Source: Micropruina glycogenica
GTDB taxonomy: Bacteria; Actinomycetota; Actinomycetes; Propionibacteriales; Propionibacteriaceae
Assembly (NCBI RefSeq): GCF_900289045.1
Contig: NZ_LT985188.1
Span: 2,418,001-2,482,000, forward strand
Reading direction: 5' to 3'
DNA: 64,000 nucleotides
This document shows, one piece after another, positions 52-41,477 of this stretch. Each line of letters opens with the position of its first letter. The stretch's first letter is position 1. The position numbers and the translations under genes were made by a program. The notes beneath the pieces were generated by a model. That model was not told the DNA's origin, searched no databases, and worked only from the letters and a program-made list of their open reading frames with translations.

Positions 52-90
52 TGAGCCAAAAGGAGAACCGTCCCCGATCTGGCTCAGTCG
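52..90. repeat. GGGGACGGTTCT-family palindromic unit
   Basis: GAGCCA and TGGCTC arms bracket an AGAACCGTCCCC core just downstream of, and slightly overlapping, the end of the first minus-strand gene. The same core recurs at 4758-4836, 27329-27489, 41313-41477 and, in variant form, 58489-58580. Confidence 0.7.
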
Positions 91-4757: not shown

Positions 4758-4836
4758 GGCTGAGCCAGAAGTGAGGACGGTTCTCTTTCTGTATCACCGG
4801 CAATCTGAGCCGGAATGAGAACCGTCCCATTCGGGC
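4758..4836. repeat. GGACGGTTCTC/GAGAACCGTCC hairpin cassette
   Basis: The left arm runs from GGCTGAGCC to GGACGGTTCTC and the right arm from GAGAACCGTCC to GGGCTC, with an intervening GCCGGCAATCTGAGCCGG-like segment. It separates the GH32 gene from the deacetylase gene and could also act as a transcription terminator. Confidence 0.7.
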
Positions 4837-18109: not shown

Positions 18110-18287
18110 GAGATCCCGGCGTTCGCCGGGATGACGGGGGTGCCGGGTCGCCGGGACGACCGGTCGCGGGGTTGACCGGGTCGCCTGGGATGACGGGGCC
18201 GCCCGGTTGTTGGGGTCGCCCGGTTGTTTGGGTCGCCGGTACGAACGGGTCACCGGGACGACCGGGCTGACCGGCGGGGACGGTGCG
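18110..18287. repeat. CCCGGCG/CGCCGGG palindrome followed by GGGTCGCC-rich degenerate tandem repeats
   Basis: Starts with a perfect copy of the CCCGGCGTTCGCCGGGAT element (18110-18135) and continues as a degenerate array with units such as GGGTCGCCGGGACGACC and GGGGTCGCCCGGTTGTT to about 18287. Nothing coding is convincing here; the Pro/Gly-rich open frames are by-products of the repeat. Confidence 0.7.
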
Positions 18288-21082: not shown

Positions 21083-21472
21083 ACGTTCACCACCCGTACC
21101 CGGCGGCTGAGCCGCTTCGCGATTCTTCCGCTTGCGGCCGGCCTGGCGATCGGCCTGAGCGCCTTCAGCGCACCCCAGGCACAGGCGGCCACCCAGTACT
21201 GCAACGGCTACAAGGCCACCATCGTCGGCACCAACGGCAACGACGACATCGAAGGCACCAGCGGACGCGACGTGATCGTGGGCCTCGGCGGTCACGACGA
21301 GATCGACGGCAACGGCGGCAACGACGTGATCTGCGCCGGCTCGGGCAACGACGAGGTCGACGGCGGCAGCAGCAACGACTACATTCACGGCGGCTCGGGC
21401 CACGACCTCGTCGGGGGCGGACCCGGCAGTGACACCGTCAGCGGCGGTGCGGGCACCGACACGGTCACGTAG
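21083..21472 (+). CDS. Secreted RTX/hemolysin-type calcium-binding repeat protein; likely ACG start
   Basis: An AAGGAG site (21071-21076) is followed six bases later by an in-frame ACG (21083), not ATG. Starting there gives a textbook signal peptide: TRTRRLSRF, a hydrophobic core AILPLAAGLAIGLSAF and an AQA cleavage site (near residue 33), after which the mature protein starts ATQYC. The only ordinary upstream start, GTG 21026, has no ribosome-binding site and would add 19 polar residues before the n-region. The mature part carries GGxGxDxxx-type RTX nonapeptides (GTNGNDDIEG, GLGGHDEIDG, GNGGNDVICA, GSGNDEVDG, GSGHDLVGG, GAGTDTVT), which bind calcium and fold as a parallel beta-roll. At 129 residues it is a minimal RTX protein with no enzymatic domain. 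Confidence 0.75.
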   Translation, partial: TFTTRTRRLSRFAILPLAAGLAIGLSAFSAPQAQAATQYCNGYKATIVGTNGNDDIEGTSGRDVIVGLGGHDEIDGNGGNDVICAGSGNDEVDGGSSNDYIHGGSGHDLVGGGPGSDTVSGGAGTDTVT

Positions 21473-23039: not shown

Positions 23040-23180
23040 CGATGAACCTCCGGTTCGGCCGCGTTCACCCTAGTCGCGTGCAGGCGGTGCGGCGCCGATC
23101 AAGGTGCCGACACTCCTTGCCGAAGACCCCGTCGTCCCTGGCGAGACCGGGGATCTCACCCGCAACCGTGCAGTGGAACA

Positions 23181-23292
23181 GATGGGAGATCGCGGCGTTC
23201 GCCGGGATGACGGCGTGCCGTGATCGAGTGCGCGACAGATGGAGATCCCGGCGTTCGCCGGGATGACGGCGTGCCGTGATGGAGTGCGCTCA
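23181..23292. repeat. Tandem duplication of a ~57-bp unit carrying the CCCGGCG/CGCCGGG palindrome
   Basis: Two adjacent units begin GATGGGAGATC and GATGGAGATC, contain GGCGTTCGCCGGGATGACGG and continue with CGTGCCGTGATCGAGTGCG / CGTGCCGTGATGGAGTGCG. The second carries the perfect palindrome; the first has CGCGGCG in its left arm. Confidence 0.85.
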
Positions 23293-25444: not shown

Positions 25445-27193
25445 TCAGCCGTCCAGCGGATCGGCCATCTCGGCGAGCTTCTGCACCCGTTTCGCGCGCA
25501 GCGTGCCGGGTGCGTACTTCAGGGTCCAGGTGTCGTTCTCGATCAGGTCGAAGGCGTGCTGGTCGGCCTGGGGTTGGTCGCCCTGCTGTTGACCGTTGCG
25601 TGCTGACAGCTGCTGCACCACCGAACGAAAGTAGTAGTGAAAGAACAGCCGGTTGAACTCGGTGAAATAGATGTCGGCCACCCGAGCGTCACCCCTGATG
25701 ATGATCATGTTCTCGTCGTTCTCGGTGGTGGAGGCCTTCGAGAAGTTGGCCGAGCCGGTGACCACCACCGGGTCAGGACCGAGCGGGTCGCTGAGCAGGA
25801 ACTTGTCGTGAATGAACGCGACGTGCTTGTTGAGGCCCAGTTCACGGGTGGTGGTCTCGGCGACCCACTGACCCAGCGGGTGGTCGAGTTCAGAACCCCA
25901 GGCCTGGTAGACGTTGCGCGACGAGTCGAGGCGAACCGTCGCCTTGCCGCGGGTTTCGAGCAGAAAGAACCGCAGCGGGCCGTCAGGGGTTCCGCCCGCG
26001 GCGGCGTCTTGAATCTCTTGCGCGATGCCGAACGCGAACGTGGCGCAGGCCAGCGAGGTGGTGCCCGCTCCGATCAGTTGGGCGTACAGGTTGAGTGCCC
26101 CCAGGTCGGGCCGCGGGCTGAACACCGGGGTGATGCCGGGTGCGACACCCGCCCGGTCGGCCGGGCCCGGGCTCAAGGCGGCCACCGCCGCCTTGAACGC
26201 GGCGTTCTTGGTTCGTTTGTCGGTGGCGGTGTCCGCCGACCGTCCGCCGGGGTCGGTGGCCAGCAGGTCGAAGTACGCCTCGTAGGCGGCGGCGGTGCGG
26301 GCGTCGCGCACCAATTGGCCGACATTCGACTGGCCGTGCACGCCGCCCCTGGTCAGGTTGGTCGAGCCCGTCCAGACCGTGGTGGGGGTTCCGGCCTCGC
26401 TGCGCACCAGGAACTTGTTGTGCGCGATCGCCGACACCCGCGCCTCGCGGGCAATGATCACGCCGGGCGGAAAGCCGGCGGCGGCGATGGCGGCCTGGTT
26501 GGGCACCCGCGGGCCGTCGGCGGTGTTCTTGAAGTCGATCACCAGGCGCACCTCGACGCCCCGGTCGGCGGCGCGGACCAGTTTGTCGAGCACGGGGGCA
26601 TAGTTGAACTCGTAGAACGCGCCGTGCAGCGCGTCGCCGGGGGCGGTTGTTCGAATGAAGTCCAGCAGCACGTCGTCCAGATCGCGGCTGAGCCAGTCGA
26701 GCGCCTGTTGCCGCAACTCGGGGGTCGGCTGGGCGTCGGGCGGCAGCCCGTTGAACCGGCGCTGGTAGGCCTGGCTCGAGGCCACGCCGCGGTTGAAGAC
26801 CACGTCATTGGCGCCGCCATGCAGCGGCTCCGTGTGCACCGTGATGGTGATCGGCTTGTTGCGTCGCGGCTTGGCCGGCGTCCCACGCATCGGGTGAAAG
26901 CGGTAGGTGTAGGTGGTGTCGCCACGCAGCGTGAAGTCGTCCCACACCAGCGCCTGAATCGGGTGGGTGTACGTCGACACCTCATCAGTCGGCTTGGGGT
27001 CGCGCACCAGCGACGGGAACACCTTGAACCCGCGCATCCAGACGAACGGTCCGCCCTCGGCGGCGCGTTCGACGCAGAACCCCAGCAGGCCCTTGCGGGC
27101 GAATTCGGTGGCGGTCAGGGCGAACGACACGGTGTTCACACCGCACACCGCGTAGGCCCGAATGCCACGAACCGAACGTGACCGGTAACGCAT
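25445..27193 (-). CDS. Phospholipase D-like protein with two HKD motifs
   Basis: A 582-residue protein of the PLD superfamily, which hydrolyses or transfers phosphodiesters through two HxKx4D motifs. The first is HNKFLVRSEAG...GSTNLTRGG (residues ~275-305; the Asp position of the strict motif is replaced by Glu in SEAG) and the second is HDKFLLSDPLGPD...GSANFSKAS (~475-500), which is canonical. The N-terminal ~150 residues form a beta-rich region (FCVERAAEGGPFVWMRGFKVF; YTYRFHPM) with no family I know. There is no signal peptide, so it should act in the cytoplasm, where substrates could be phospholipids or nucleic acids. It stands in front of the membrane hydrolase gene and may be co-transcribed with it. 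Confidence 0.78.
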   Translation of the reverse strand: MRYRSRSVRGIRAYAVCGVNTVSFALTATEFARKGLLGFCVERAAEGGPFVWMRGFKVFPSLVRDPKPTDEVSTYTHPIQALVWDDFTLRGDTTYTYRFHPMRGTPAKPRRNKPITITVHTEPLHGGANDVVFNRGVASSQAYQRRFNGLPPDAQPTPELRQQALDWLSRDLDDVLLDFIRTTAPGDALHGAFYEFNYAPVLDKLVRAADRGVEVRLVIDFKNTADGPRVPNQAAIAAAGFPPGVIIAREARVSAIAHNKFLVRSEAGTPTTVWTGSTNLTRGGVHGQSNVGQLVRDARTAAAYEAYFDLLATDPGGRSADTATDKRTKNAAFKAAVAALSPGPADRAGVAPGITPVFSPRPDLGALNLYAQLIGAGTTSLACATFAFGIAQEIQDAAAGGTPDGPLRFFLLETRGKATVRLDSSRNVYQAWGSELDHPLGQWVAETTTRELGLNKHVAFIHDKFLLSDPLGPDPVVVTGSANFSKASTTENDENMIIIRGDARVADIYFTEFNRLFFHYYFRSVVQQLSARNGQQQGDQPQADQHAFDLIENDTWTLKYAPGTLRAKRVQKLAEMADPLDG

Positions 27194-27328
27194 ACCTCAA
27201 GGTAGCCCCGGCAGGCCGCTTTGATACCGGCCGGACTCGATGTGGCGCCGCACGACCGCCTGTGCGGATCCGCAGCCTCCAGCCCGGTCACTCGGCATGA
27301 CCACGACGGGCGAAGGGGAGGTTTCTCA

Positions 27329-27489
27329 GCGGTCAGGGGACGGTTCTCCAGCGGTTGGAGAACCGTCCCCTACCCGGTTGGAGAACCGTCCCCTTGCCGG
27401 TTGGAGAAGCGTCCCCTACCCGGTCGGAGAACCGTCCCTTACCCGGTCGGAGAACCGTCCCCTACCCGGTTGGAGAACCGTCCCCTTGC
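27329..27489. repeat. Six tandem 23-bp repeats preceded by one inverted unit
   Basis: From 27352 to 27489 there are six exact-length 23-bp units, each beginning CGGT(T/C)GGAGAA(C/G)CGTCCC and ending (C/T)TACC or CTTGC. The upstream GGGGACGGTTCTCC (27337-27350) is the inverse of the core AGAACCGTCCCC, so a large hairpin with sliding registers is possible. The array ends a few bases from the stop of the downstream VOC gene. There are no spacers, so it is not a CRISPR array; it has the form of a variable-number tandem repeat. Confidence 0.92.
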
Positions 27490-27492
27490 CCG

Positions 27493-27984
27493 TCAGTCGA
27501 TGCGTTGCGCGAGGGCGACGATGATGCCGTCGGGGCCACGCACGTACGCCATGCGCCAGACGTTCTCGTACTGGCCGATGCCGCCCACCAGGCCGTAGCC
27601 GTCGGCCGCCACCCGCTCGACGAGGGCGTCGATGTCGTCCACCTGAAACGCGACGCTGCGCAATCCCGCCTGATTGGTGGGTGCGGCTGAGCCTGGCAGC
27701 ACGTCGGGGCGATCGAAGCTCGACAGTTCGACCCCGGTGCCGCCGTCGGGCGCTCGCAGCATGACGATCTGCGTGCGCGCACCCGTCATGCCGATCACGG
27801 TGTCGAGGAAGTCCCCGTCAACCGCCATACGTTCTTCGACCTCCAGCCCGAGGCTGACGAAGAAGGCCGTTGCACTGTCGAGGTCACTCACCGTGATACC
27901 GACGTGGTCGAAGGTCAGCACCCGCGCCGCCGTCGATTCGTCGAAACCGCCGACGCCCTGCGGCAGCCTCGGCGCCCGGGCCAT
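27493..27984 (-). CDS. VOC family protein, methylmalonyl-CoA epimerase/glyoxalase-like
   Basis: A single VOC chain (about 163 residues) with the two-module fold: LTFDHVGITVSDLDSATAFF supplies the first metal His, VELSSFDRP the first Glu, LRSVAFQVDDIDALVERV the second His position (here Gln/Val, so possibly degenerate) and YVRGPDGIIVALAQ the last Glu position (replaced by Val/Ala). Loss of canonical ligands makes the activity uncertain. The ATG at 27984 overlaps the TGA of the upstream zinc-ribbon gene as ATGA, indicating translational coupling. Reading further upstream (27493-28026) would intrude into that gene and is rejected. Confidence 0.75.
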   Translation of the reverse strand: MARAPRLPQGVGGFDESTAARVLTFDHVGITVSDLDSATAFFVSLGLEVEERMAVDGDFLDTVIGMTGARTQIVMLRAPDGGTGVELSSFDRPDVLPGSAAPTNQAGLRSVAFQVDDIDALVERVAADGYGLVGGIGQYENVWRMAYVRGPDGIIVALAQRID

Positions 27985-28727
27985 CACAGCCCCGATTCGG
28001 CGGTGCGCACCAGAATGCGGTTGCACTCTTCGCAGCGCAGCACCTCATCGGGTGACGCGTGGCGGTAGCGCACCAGGTCGGCGGCGTTCACCTGCAACTG
28101 GCAACCCGAACAGCGACGCTGCACCAGCGCGGCAGCCCCCACTCCTCCGCTCTTGGCGCGCACCTTGTCGTACAGGTCCACCAGGTCGGCCGGCAGCTCG
28201 GCAACCAGCCCTTCGCGCAGCGAGCGCTGGCCGGCCAGCTCGGCGTCCAGTTCGGCGAACTGAGTGTCGCGCGCGGCGATCAGAGCGCGCAGTTCACCTT
28301 CACCCGCCGCGCGGTCGGCCACCAGTTGATCGCGGACGCCGGTGGCGGCCTCGAGCCGTTCCATCACCTCGAGTTCGTCGTCTTCGAGGGCGACGATGCG
28401 GCGCTTGAGGTGCTCGATCTCGTCCAACAGGGCGTTGAGCTGCTTGGGGTCGCTGACGGTGCCGTCGTTGACGCGCTGCTGATCGCGCTGCAACCGCTGG
28501 CGCACCGGCACCAGATCGTCCTCGGCCTTGGCCTGATCGAGCTCCAGATCGCTGACCGCGGTGTTGGCGGCGATCAGCTCTTCGGCCTGCCGCCGGCGCA
28601 CCACCTGGCGCTCGGCGATGGCTGCCAGTTCGGGCAGTGAGCGCCGCCGATGATCGAGCTGAGCGATCGCGGTGTCGATCGACTGCAGTTGCAGCAGCCT
28701 CGTTTGAGCGGTGGCAGCAGCCTGCAT
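27984..28727 (-). CDS. Coiled-coil protein with C4 zinc ribbon (zf-RING_7/CT398 family)
   Basis: The 247-residue protein is mostly two long antiparallel coiled-coil helices (residues ~1-190; LQLQSIDTAIAQLDHRR, then ELDQAKAEDDLVPVRQRLQRDQQRV and LLDEIEHLKRRIVALEDDELEVMERLE) followed by a four-Cys ribbon, CSGCQLQVN...CEECNRIL. This architecture is the conserved bacterial DUF164/zf-RING_7 family. In Actinobacteria it is often encoded next to Nif3-like and RNase H/phosphoglycerate-mutase genes; here a histidine phosphatase lies divergently, 53 bp away. Its function is unproven; flagellar or transport roles have been proposed for homologues elsewhere. The ATG start has GGAGG. Confidence 0.85.
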   Translation of the reverse strand: MQAAATAQTRLLQLQSIDTAIAQLDHRRRSLPELAAIAERQVVRRRQAEELIAANTAVSDLELDQAKAEDDLVPVRQRLQRDQQRVNDGTVSDPKQLNALLDEIEHLKRRIVALEDDELEVMERLEAATGVRDQLVADRAAGEGELRALIAARDTQFAELDAELAGQRSLREGLVAELPADLVDLYDKVRAKSGGVGAAALVQRRCSGCQLQVNAADLVRYRHASPDEVLRCEECNRILVRTAESGL

Positions 28728-33963: not shown

Positions 33964-35019
33964 GTGACCAACCAGCCCGGTAACAACGACCAGAAGCCCA
34001 CCGAATCCGACGAGGGCTCGACCCCTCCCCCGTACTCACCGCCTGGGTACACGCCCCCCGGTGCCGATGCCGGCCAGGGCCAGCAGTCGGGCTACACCCC
34101 GCCCAGCTACTCCGCCCCAAGTGGCAGCGACGCCCCCGCGGCAGGCGGCTACACCCCACCCAGCTACGGGGCCCCCAGCGGCAGCGACGCCCCCGCGGCC
34201 GGCGGCTACACCCCACCCGGCTACGGGGCCCCCAGCGGCAGCGACCAGAGCTTCGGCCAGACCCCGAGCTACGGTGCTCAGGGCCAAGAGAGCTATGGCC
34301 AGCAGCAGCCCGAGTATGGCCAGCAGCCCGGGTATGGCCAGCAGCAGCCCGAGTATGGCCAGCAGCCCCAGTACGGCCAGCAGCAGCCCGGGTACGGCCA
34401 GGAGCAACCGGGGTACGGCCAGCAGCCCCCCGCTGCTCCTTACGGAGCGCCTGCCGGCGGCTACGGCCCGAACGCCACCGGCGGGTACGACCCCAATGCG
34501 GGTGCCCAGACCCCCTACGGGGCTCCCAACGCCGGCTACGGGGCCCCTTCGCCGTACGGTGCACCCGGTGGCTACCAGCCCAACCCCTATGCCCCCTCGG
34601 GCCCGGTGCTCGCCACCTGGGGACGTCGCGCTCTGGGCGGCCTGATCGACTTCGTCGCTCCAGGGATCGTGGTCTCGATGATCATCGGACTGATCTTTGC
34701 CGACCGCACGTCATCCGTGGCGAACCTGCTGAGCACCGTGCTCACGCTCGGTTTCTGGTGCTATAACACCGGTTACCGCCTCGCCACCACCGGCTACTCG
34801 TTCGGCCACAAGATCGCCCAGGTGCGCGTGGTGATGGCCGACAGCGGCCAGACTCCGACGGTCAACACGGCCGTGCTGCGTGCGGTGTGCCACCTGCTCG
34901 ACTCGTGGGCCTGCCTGATCGGCTGGCTGTTCCCCTTGTGGGACGCCAAGAAGCAGACGTTCGCCGACAAGATCACCAAGACTGTCTCCCTCGACGAGCG
35001 CAACGCCGGGCAGCGCTGA
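33964..35019 (+). CDS. RDD family membrane protein with long Gly/Tyr/Gln/Pro-rich N-terminus
   Basis: The 351-residue protein has a low-complexity N-terminal half (residues ~20-215). It contains three GGYTPPSYGAPSGSDAPAA-like units, then a run of about seven YGQQ(P/Q)xYGQQ units, then PNAGYGAPSPYGAPGGYQP. The C-terminal ~140 residues are an RDD domain with three membrane helices (RRALGGLIDFVAPGIVVSMIIG; VLTLGFWCYNTGYRLATTGYSFGHKIAQVRV; a last helix near DSWACLIGWLFPLWD). RDD proteins may be transport or antiporter components; the actinobacterial ones with such tails are often partners of cell-envelope or division machinery, but the role here is unknown. GTG start with AGGAG. Confidence 0.88.
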   Translation: MTNQPGNNDQKPTESDEGSTPPPYSPPGYTPPGADAGQGQQSGYTPPSYSAPSGSDAPAAGGYTPPSYGAPSGSDAPAAGGYTPPGYGAPSGSDQSFGQTPSYGAQGQESYGQQQPEYGQQPGYGQQQPEYGQQPQYGQQQPGYGQEQPGYGQQPPAAPYGAPAGGYGPNATGGYDPNAGAQTPYGAPNAGYGAPSPYGAPGGYQPNPYAPSGPVLATWGRRALGGLIDFVAPGIVVSMIIGLIFADRTSSVANLLSTVLTLGFWCYNTGYRLATTGYSFGHKIAQVRVVMADSGQTPTVNTAVLRAVCHLLDSWACLIGWLFPLWDAKKQTFADKITKTVSLDERNAGQR

Positions 35020-41312: not shown

Positions 41313-41477
41313 GGGGACGGTTCTACTTCTGGCTCAGGGGACGGTTCTACTTCTGGCTCACTCCCGCGTGCTCAGTCGGCGCAACAATCCCCGTCCCCGA
41401 ACGCAGGTCAGCAAGGCAGGGGACTCGGCCGAGCCACAAAGAGAACCGTCCCCTGAGCCAAAAAGAGAACCGTCCCC
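41313..41477. repeat. Mirror-image double doublet of 24-bp units
   Basis: The left half has two tandem 24-bp units (41313-41336, 41337-41360) beginning GGGGACGGTTCTACTTCTGG; the right half has two tandem units of opposite sense (41431-41454, 41455-41477) of the form GAGCCA(C/A)AAAGAGAACCGTC. The 70-bp centre is not repeated but contains CCCCGTCCCC. The array lies between mrp and the DUF1003 gene and should fold into a large cruciform-like structure. Confidence 0.9.

Follow-up and report, generated by a model that had tools for sequence, protein, structure and literature searches.

A phased 23-bp tandem array of Micropruina glycogenica as a probable local expansion of a RAYT-linked intergenic repeat family with a constant core

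The described systems closest to the repeat reported here are those of the TIR-associated tyrosine transposases, known as TIRtrons or TIRYT (Di Nocera et al. 2013, PMC3733652). As that paper presents them, some TIRs of TIRYT genes share the motif GGGGWSAS, and the TIR families are moderately abundant and occur in dimers or clusters. TnpA_Y1 subclass 2.1, as defined in a 2018 survey, includes 291 of the 292 group 1 RAYTs and has an HTH; the survey reports no REP-like sequences near subclass 2.1 genes by either automatic or manual search, and asks for more work on the equivalence of this subclass with the TIR-linked enzymes (PMC6006769). The CGTC-tagged REPs form a further kind, described as having an 8-9-bp stem, at one end of which the tag is left unpaired, and as lacking an associated transposase gene (PMC3733652); the word actinobacteria is absent from the main text of that paper. 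For subclass 2.1, a high copy number, phased half-unit arrays and a co-varying core were not found in the open-licence literature. A literature search with the letters of the core described below returned no repeat paper among the matches listed, and one for Micropruina together with repeat and transposase returned none.

The window, which is the whole 64,000-nucleotide stretch of the M. glycogenica genome (G000) that was analysed, carries a tandem array of six 23-bp units at positions 27348-27485 on the plus strand, each unit consisting of a 12-nt linker and an 11-nt core. The cores start at 27360, 27383, 27406, 27429, 27452 and 27475, in exact 23-bp steps, and TRF reported a repeat at 27352-27486 with a period of 23, 5.9 copies, 91% matches and 0% indels; both confirmed the original prediction of six units exactly in phase. 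The core GAACCGTCCCC is exact in four of the six units, and units 3 and 4 carry GAAGCGTCCCC and GAACCGTCCCT, respectively. At the head of the array lies an inverted unit, GGGGACGGTTCTCC, at 27336-27349 on the minus strand (core 27336-27346), one base before the start at 27337 first given for it. Direct reading and a TRF row at 27314-27355 (period 21) placed a second, degenerate inverted unit, GGGGAGGTTTCTC, at about 27315-27327 on the same strand, 21 bp from the head. The array was expected to adjoin the stop codon of a gene, and the stop codon (27493-27495) of a glyoxalase-family ORF (PF00903, E = 2.1e-13; 27493-28026, minus strand) does lie 7 bp from the last unit. On the other side is a PLD-domain ORF at 25445-27193, minus strand (PF13091, E = 3.1e-24). 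The window as a whole contained 20 matches to the core with at most one mismatch; over 100 shuffles the mean was 2.81 and the highest count 7.

Reading the linkers unit by unit showed that the two sub-types predicted for them are real, the linkers following the cores of units 1 to 6 being TACC, TTGC, TACC, TACC, TACC and TTGC. This mix, with two identical, non-adjacent endings among the six units, fits the duplication of multi-unit blocks, but also that of single units with mutation or conversion. Together with the first direct unit, the inverted head forms a predicted DNA hairpin at 27335-27371, with a 16-bp stem and a 5-nt loop (-20.4 kcal/mol, z = -8.40), while two single 23-nt units fold weakly (-4.0 and -4.3 kcal/mol, z = -1.8 and -2.3). 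The hairpin proposed for the inverted head was thereby supported; of the further claim that the head can pair with any of the six cores, perfect pairing stood for four only, since units 3 and 4 have inexact cores.

Corresponding loci in other members of the genus were compared. Even with one mismatch allowed, no core was present in the matching stretches on the PLD side in G003 and G005 (3.2 kb each), and in both genomes the gene neighbouring the PLD gene differs. No core was found in G004 either, at a locus near a contig end (L016) where the match was confined to the gene on the far side of the glyoxalase gene. The array is missing at matched loci and is therefore not fixed in the genus. As far as these genome sequences go, its absence from two genus members shows gain or loss between species and not slippage.

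Exact copies of GAACCGTCCCC numbered 374 in the 3,844,677-bp genome (176 on the plus strand and 198 on the minus strand), and the reversed control gave 0. A detailed sample of 60 stretches of 20 kb each (1.2 Mb, about a third of the genome) held 132 exact cores in 42 clusters, again with no exact copy of the reversed core; with up to one mismatch, the sample held 209 cores, compared with 21 for the reversed core. Ninety-six neighbouring cores in the sample had the same direction, mostly at spacings of 23 bp (50), 24 bp (19) or 22 bp (11); 25 faced inward and 3 outward. Because 11 of the 25 inward pairs share a spacing of 24-27 bp, the inverted head of the array is an instance of a recurring design. 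The forms found in this genome are 35-nt imperfect palindromes, inward pairs and tandem arrays with a period of 22-24 bp, and several stand elsewhere in the window. A single 35-nt member (13-nt arm, core, 11-nt arm) of the type designated C below was identified from its core and flanks at 52-86 on the plus strand (core 65-75), and core search found a degenerate inward pair, with one mismatch in each core, at 4773-4829. Two inverted 24-bp type C units at 41313-41347 (minus strand), in another gap that is intergenic according to the gene caller, and two direct 24-bp type C units at 41443-41477 (plus strand), all seen by TRF and core search, form an inward-facing pair of arrays.

All 45 clusters (42 sampled and 3 in the window) were intergenic, compared with 80.8% of random points falling within genes; the gene calls came from our own simple codon-usage caller, which is crude and independent of any annotation. 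Among six members of the genus, AGAACCGTCCCC ranged from 2 to 280 copies. The paired-unit pattern had 0 matches in the viral_contigs collection. A possible replichore bias was dropped from consideration, the GC skew over 61 stretches being too weak for safe placement of the origin and terminus.

The 142 exact cores of the sample and the window were sorted by the type of their flanks into 56 of type D, to which the array at 27348-27485 belongs, 31 of type C, 18 of type A, 7 of type B and 30 of none. Types A and B are 35-nt palindromes made up of a 13-nt arm, the core and an 11-nt arm. On average, 9.1 of 11 arm positions pair within a unit of type A, 6.6 in B, 3.3 in C and 4.7 in D; the arms of C and D are unpaired on average because these types occur mostly as arrays of the left arm and core without the right arm. 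This repeated half-unit is 24 nt long in type C and 23 nt in type D. In folding, a type A element reached -18.9 kcal/mol (z = -7.3) and a type B element -12.2 kcal/mol (z = -5.6). The type C element that stands singly at window positions 52-86 folded no better than shuffles (z = -1.1).

The base that follows the core was T at 63 of 73 array-internal cores in G000, compared with 8 of the 45 that had no tandem neighbour, after which A was the commonest base (28 of 45). Junctions were all T in 14 of the 20 arrays with at least three units. Published RAYTs are described as cleaving at CT, or at CT and CA (PMC8266576), and the parallel between these cut sites and the C-T junction is suggestive only, because units within one subtype share ancestry; the preference may be one of simple inheritance within array subtypes. 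Arrays beside other RAYTs are not all of the C-T kind, as A follows the core at locus L009. On the other side of the core, GTAG directly precedes AACC in 13 of the 142 exact cores and GTGG in at least 3, among the types listed. GGAG stands before AACC in 47 of 73 array-internal cores, 12 of 24 array-last cores and 5 of 45 cores without a tandem neighbour.

Matches to PF01797 (Y1_Tnp) were found in 3 of 29 genomes, once in G000, once in the genus-mate G004 and twice in G013. The sole Y1_Tnp gene found in G000 (E = 3.2e-12) encodes a RAYT of 253 aa (L011:1465-2223). Arrays of the core flank this gene in inverted orientation: four inverted units stand upstream, and a four-unit 23-bp array is present in duplicate downstream. 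This arrangement bears out the link to RAYT genes that had been suggested for the array in the window. The two downstream arrays sit within a direct duplication with an offset of 211 bp, and the copying of a whole four-unit array in it indicates that arrays spread as larger blocks too. The duplication (L011:2235-2379) comprises 145 bp of exact identity around the array, with 149 of 150 aligned bases identical, and also includes a stretch that matches the final codons of the RAYT gene.

The RAYT of G004 is 57% identical to that of G000, occupies the same site and is likewise flanked by cores; its neighbours on the two sides are an IclR gene with 98.8% identity and an L,D-transpeptidase gene with 79.5%. 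The difference between 98.8% for IclR and 57% for the RAYT suggests, from this pair of loci, either fast evolution of the RAYT or its replacement. Other genes follow the IclR orthologue in G002 and G003, where the 3.7-kb stretch yielded neither a credible match to the RAYT (best E = 0.62) nor any core, even with one mismatch allowed. The genus-mate G005 has 280 copies of AGAACCGTCCCC and gave no Y1_Tnp match at 84% genome completeness; loss of the RAYT from this genome is possible.

The best 80 of 201 loci from a scan with four RAYTs were taken as relatives. Flanks were usable for scoring at 75 of these and too short at 5. The best inverted repeat between upstream and downstream flanks scored from 8 to 59 and exceeded 13 at 59 of the 75 loci, compared with a range of 7-13 at 74 of 75 loci when flanks were swapped (one outlier reached 169). 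At the other 16 of 75 loci the flanking inverted repeat was no better than swapped flanks. Direct reading of loci L009, L010, L011 and L012 revealed inverted flanking repeats with the core. A search for the core beside RAYT genes elsewhere had been proposed; outward cores ending in GTCCC[CT] were present on both sides in 18 of 20 relatives (L043-L062, the first 20 of the list). Of the remaining two, L048 has such a core upstream only, and in the actinobacterial relative L060 a GTCCC core is lacking altogether. A Clostridiales RAYT, L061 (36% identity), carries GAACCGTCCCT. The end of the L048 reading frame suggests a second core inside that gene.

A quick RAYT tree was built from 79 rows, 69 of them labelled (L075 and L111, with short or broken frames, were left out). 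The group without GTCCCC on both sides required 6 changes on this tree, compared with a mean of 22.4 after shuffling and 0 of 500 shuffles as low, a clustering that comes partly from near relatives and in which the label of L048 reflects a chance downstream GTCCCC. One clade held 19 actinobacterial rows, 18 of which, including L048, were labelled GTCCCC. L058, unlabelled (short flank), does carry GTCCC cores.

Residues H60, H62, Y119, N123 and P124 were invariant in the 20 relatives, all of which matched PF01797. All 20 members also matched the NCBIfam REP-associated tyrosine transposase model at E of 0.01 or below, with scores for L011 (70.8 bits) and L043 (75.6 bits) that lie below its 80-bit cut-off. 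The HUH motif of the G000 RAYT (residues 60-62) reads HAH, and the middle A recurs in 4 of the 20 relatives; A is not among the HUH middle residues listed in the 2018 survey (PMC6006769). Structure was predicted for the relative L043. Its AlphaFold2 model (20-row alignment) had a mean pLDDT of 85.0, and the best Foldseek match, 4er8 (E = 4.1e-07), was the E. coli RAYT in complex with a REP hairpin. A PDB sequence search with four of the proteins returned nothing, and one with 20 returned 4er8 at E = 0.0084 among 12 weak matches, headed by an unrelated 'CAP REPEAT' chain. Weak C-terminal HTH matches (E of 1 or below) were obtained to HTH_23 in 12 of the 20 relatives (best E = 7.5e-4) and to HTH_28 in 2, and the L043 model has helices at 189-250; these matches and modelled helices point to a C-terminal HTH in the relatives. 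The RAYT of G000 had no Pfam HTH match at E of 1 or below.

The positions at which the E. coli RAYT contacts GTAG were mapped through the weak HMMER alignment (E = 0.0084). On this mapping, W94 is replaced by F or Y and E100 by S in 20 of 20 relatives, R104 is replaced by E or D in 19 of 20, H101 is kept in none of the 20 and Q95 is kept in 19.

Core variants were counted in 17 genomes, and the core carried by a RAYT was taken from the listed RAYTs and not from every RAYT of each genome. Twenty short stretches were left out of all counts. KACCTGTCCCC reached 512, 158 and 49 copies in the three genomes whose RAYT carries it and 0-9 in the other 14, and GACCCGTCCCC reached 97 copies in the one genome with a matching RAYT and 0-27 in the other 16. 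GGGACTGTCCCC was present in 47 and 149 copies in two genomes with a matching RAYT and in 4 copies in a third, G037; four genomes without a listed matching RAYT had 48, 32 and 38 copies (G040, G042 and G050) and 12 copies, and the remaining ten had 0-3. Its reversed control gave 13 in G000 and 0-2 elsewhere. GAACCGTCCCC itself was found in all 17 genomes at 31-374 copies, some of them with a listed RAYT of another core. Amplification together with the cognate RAYT was clear for two of the three core variants tested. Most of the pattern of copy numbers fits cognate amplification, and GGGACTGTCCCC and the universal GAACCGTCCCC do not discriminate.

Like the published TIRYT loci (PMC3733652), the G000 locus has an HUH/Y1 gene between outward inverted repeats that start with GGGGAC, relatives with weak matches to a C-terminal HTH, and copies of the repeat elsewhere in the genome. 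It is unlike TIRYT or subclass 2.1 as described in that the repeat on its flanks belongs to a family that numbers 374 copies and forms tandem arrays of half-units (PMC3733652, PMC6006769). The G000 sequence GGGGACGG departs from GGGGWSAS, a motif common to some TIRs only, at the seventh base (PMC3733652), and GGGGACAG of L044, L046, L050, L051 and L056 fits it, as do the ACCTG and ACTG variants of relatives. Judged by their features, the RAYTs of the relatives fit the TIRYT/subclass 2.1 group, with most of the GTAG-contact residues missing and weak matches to a C-terminal HTH. The array represents a family of the known RAYT-linked kind, a kind described in the papers on TIRYT/TIR and subclass 2.1 (PMC3733652, PMC6006769), in an unusual form that lacks the GTAG tag and combines a fixed core of 11 bases with half-units in tandem.

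The family shares with the REP/BIME/REPIN elements of E. coli and Pseudomonas its high copy number, intergenic position, palindromic form, inward pairs and repeat-flanked RAYT, but differs from them in having no general GTAG foot and in a RAYT in which most of the GTAG-contact residues are not conserved. The constant part here is an 11-nt core located at the loop or in an arm, whereas in a REP it is a tag beside a family-specific stem. Short high-copy palindromes with CGTC within the core recall the CGTC-tagged REPs (PMC3733652); unlike those, the repeats of this family have their CGTC inside the core and are linked to a RAYT. Assignment of the array to the CGTC REPs was rejected on these two grounds, and a separate CGTC-like family exists in G000.

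We conclude that a repeat family which is abundant, intergenic and RAYT-linked, with GAACCGTCCCC as its constant core, has expanded locally to give the array; the family link, judged from sequence, is very probable. In the mechanism we propose, the RAYT, a single-strand HUH/Y1 endonuclease, would recognise the core exposed on a folded single strand, cut beside it and join the pieces, so that new inverted pairs would be seeded between genes. From an inverted pair, the half-unit of arm and core could then be multiplied head-to-tail, either through further cutting and joining by the RAYT at the C-T step just after the core or through replication slippage between identical cores behind the hairpin. 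We advance the RAYT's part in building the arrays as a hypothesis. A bolder proposal, which we offer tentatively and regard as doubtful, is that the RAYTs of this clade (group 1 / subclass 2.1 by features) have a repeat system of their own, in which the enzyme would read a short core (GAACCGTCCCC or close variants) and not GTAG with a fixed stem, and would itself build phased arrays by C-T cutting and head-to-tail joining. An enzyme reading a constant core and not a fixed stem would leave the arms free to diversify. The copies of a repeat are non-independent, and counts of them therefore overstate the evidence. The survey found no REP-like partner for subclass 2.1 (PMC6006769), and here a RAYT with the features of that subclass has an abundant partner repeat, the core of which changes with the RAYT across relatives. 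Recognition is therefore directly testable with a short oligonucleotide, and in the tandem arrays growth made by the enzyme could be told apart from growth made by slippage.

The view first put forward, that the arrays of this RAYT-linked family were produced solely by slippage in replication, or by unequal recombination, between their identical cores, with the hairpin acting to stall the fork, has in our estimation nearly an even chance. The exact phase of the units and the strong hairpin at the array head speak for such an origin, as does the duplication beside the RAYT, which carries a whole array at an offset of 211 bp; pure slippage does not, however, need the C-T junctions seen throughout 14 of 20 arrays. 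The position of the array 7 bp past the glyoxalase stop codon raises a different explanation, namely that it is an RNA or transcription element of that gene, with a 3' hairpin by which the transcript is terminated or protected. The minus-strand RNA of the array folds at -96.3 kcal/mol (z = -4.89), and clusters are over-represented between convergent genes, where 17 of 43 lie, compared with 127 of the 605 gaps that measure 50 bp or more. Repetitive inverted sequence nevertheless folds well by construction, the same family occupies dozens of other gaps, and the matching stretches of G003 and G005 hold no core with up to one mismatch. An Rfam RNA was also rejected, as none of the 7 matches at E of 1 or below in 26800-28100, four of which were microRNA models matching a hairpin, reached the gathering score. 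We consider an RNA element of the gene unlikely; beside the glyoxalase gene the array probably has no dedicated role and, if transcribed, might serve as a 3' hairpin.

The phasing of the repeats at about two helical turns, together with the weak C-terminal HTH matches in RAYT relatives, could also be read as an iteron-like array of binding sites for a regulator, for example the RAYT HTH acting as a repressor, that is selected for function. Hundreds of genomic copies, a number that varies strongly among six genus members (2-280 for AGAACCGTCCCC) and linkers that differ between arrays make this reading quite improbable. An ordinary GTAG-type REP array belonging to a canonical REPtron would equally be RAYT-linked, intergenic and palindromic, with inward pairs. 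We give it hardly any credence and rejected it on tag and contact residues, given that GTAG precedes only 13 of 142 exact cores and that the E. coli GTAG-contact positions are mostly changed in the 20 relatives.

Other repeats were noted in the same sequence. Another dispersed repeat, CGCCGGGATGACG, which on the opposite strand reads CGTCATCCCGGCG and resembles CGTC-tagged REPs, lies at window positions 18143-18266 and 23178-23289. Its exact copies number 206 in G000 and range from 2 to 341 in five genus-mates, with 0-1 for the reversed control. Repeats of 27 and 54 bp, beginning GGCAACGACGAGATCGACGG, occupy positions 21221-21406; we take them to resemble calcium-binding RTX-type repeats, their coding status being putative. 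Tandem repeats of 57 bp and of 18-60 bp were present at 34090-34429, and their consensus would read as codons for Q, P, G and Y.
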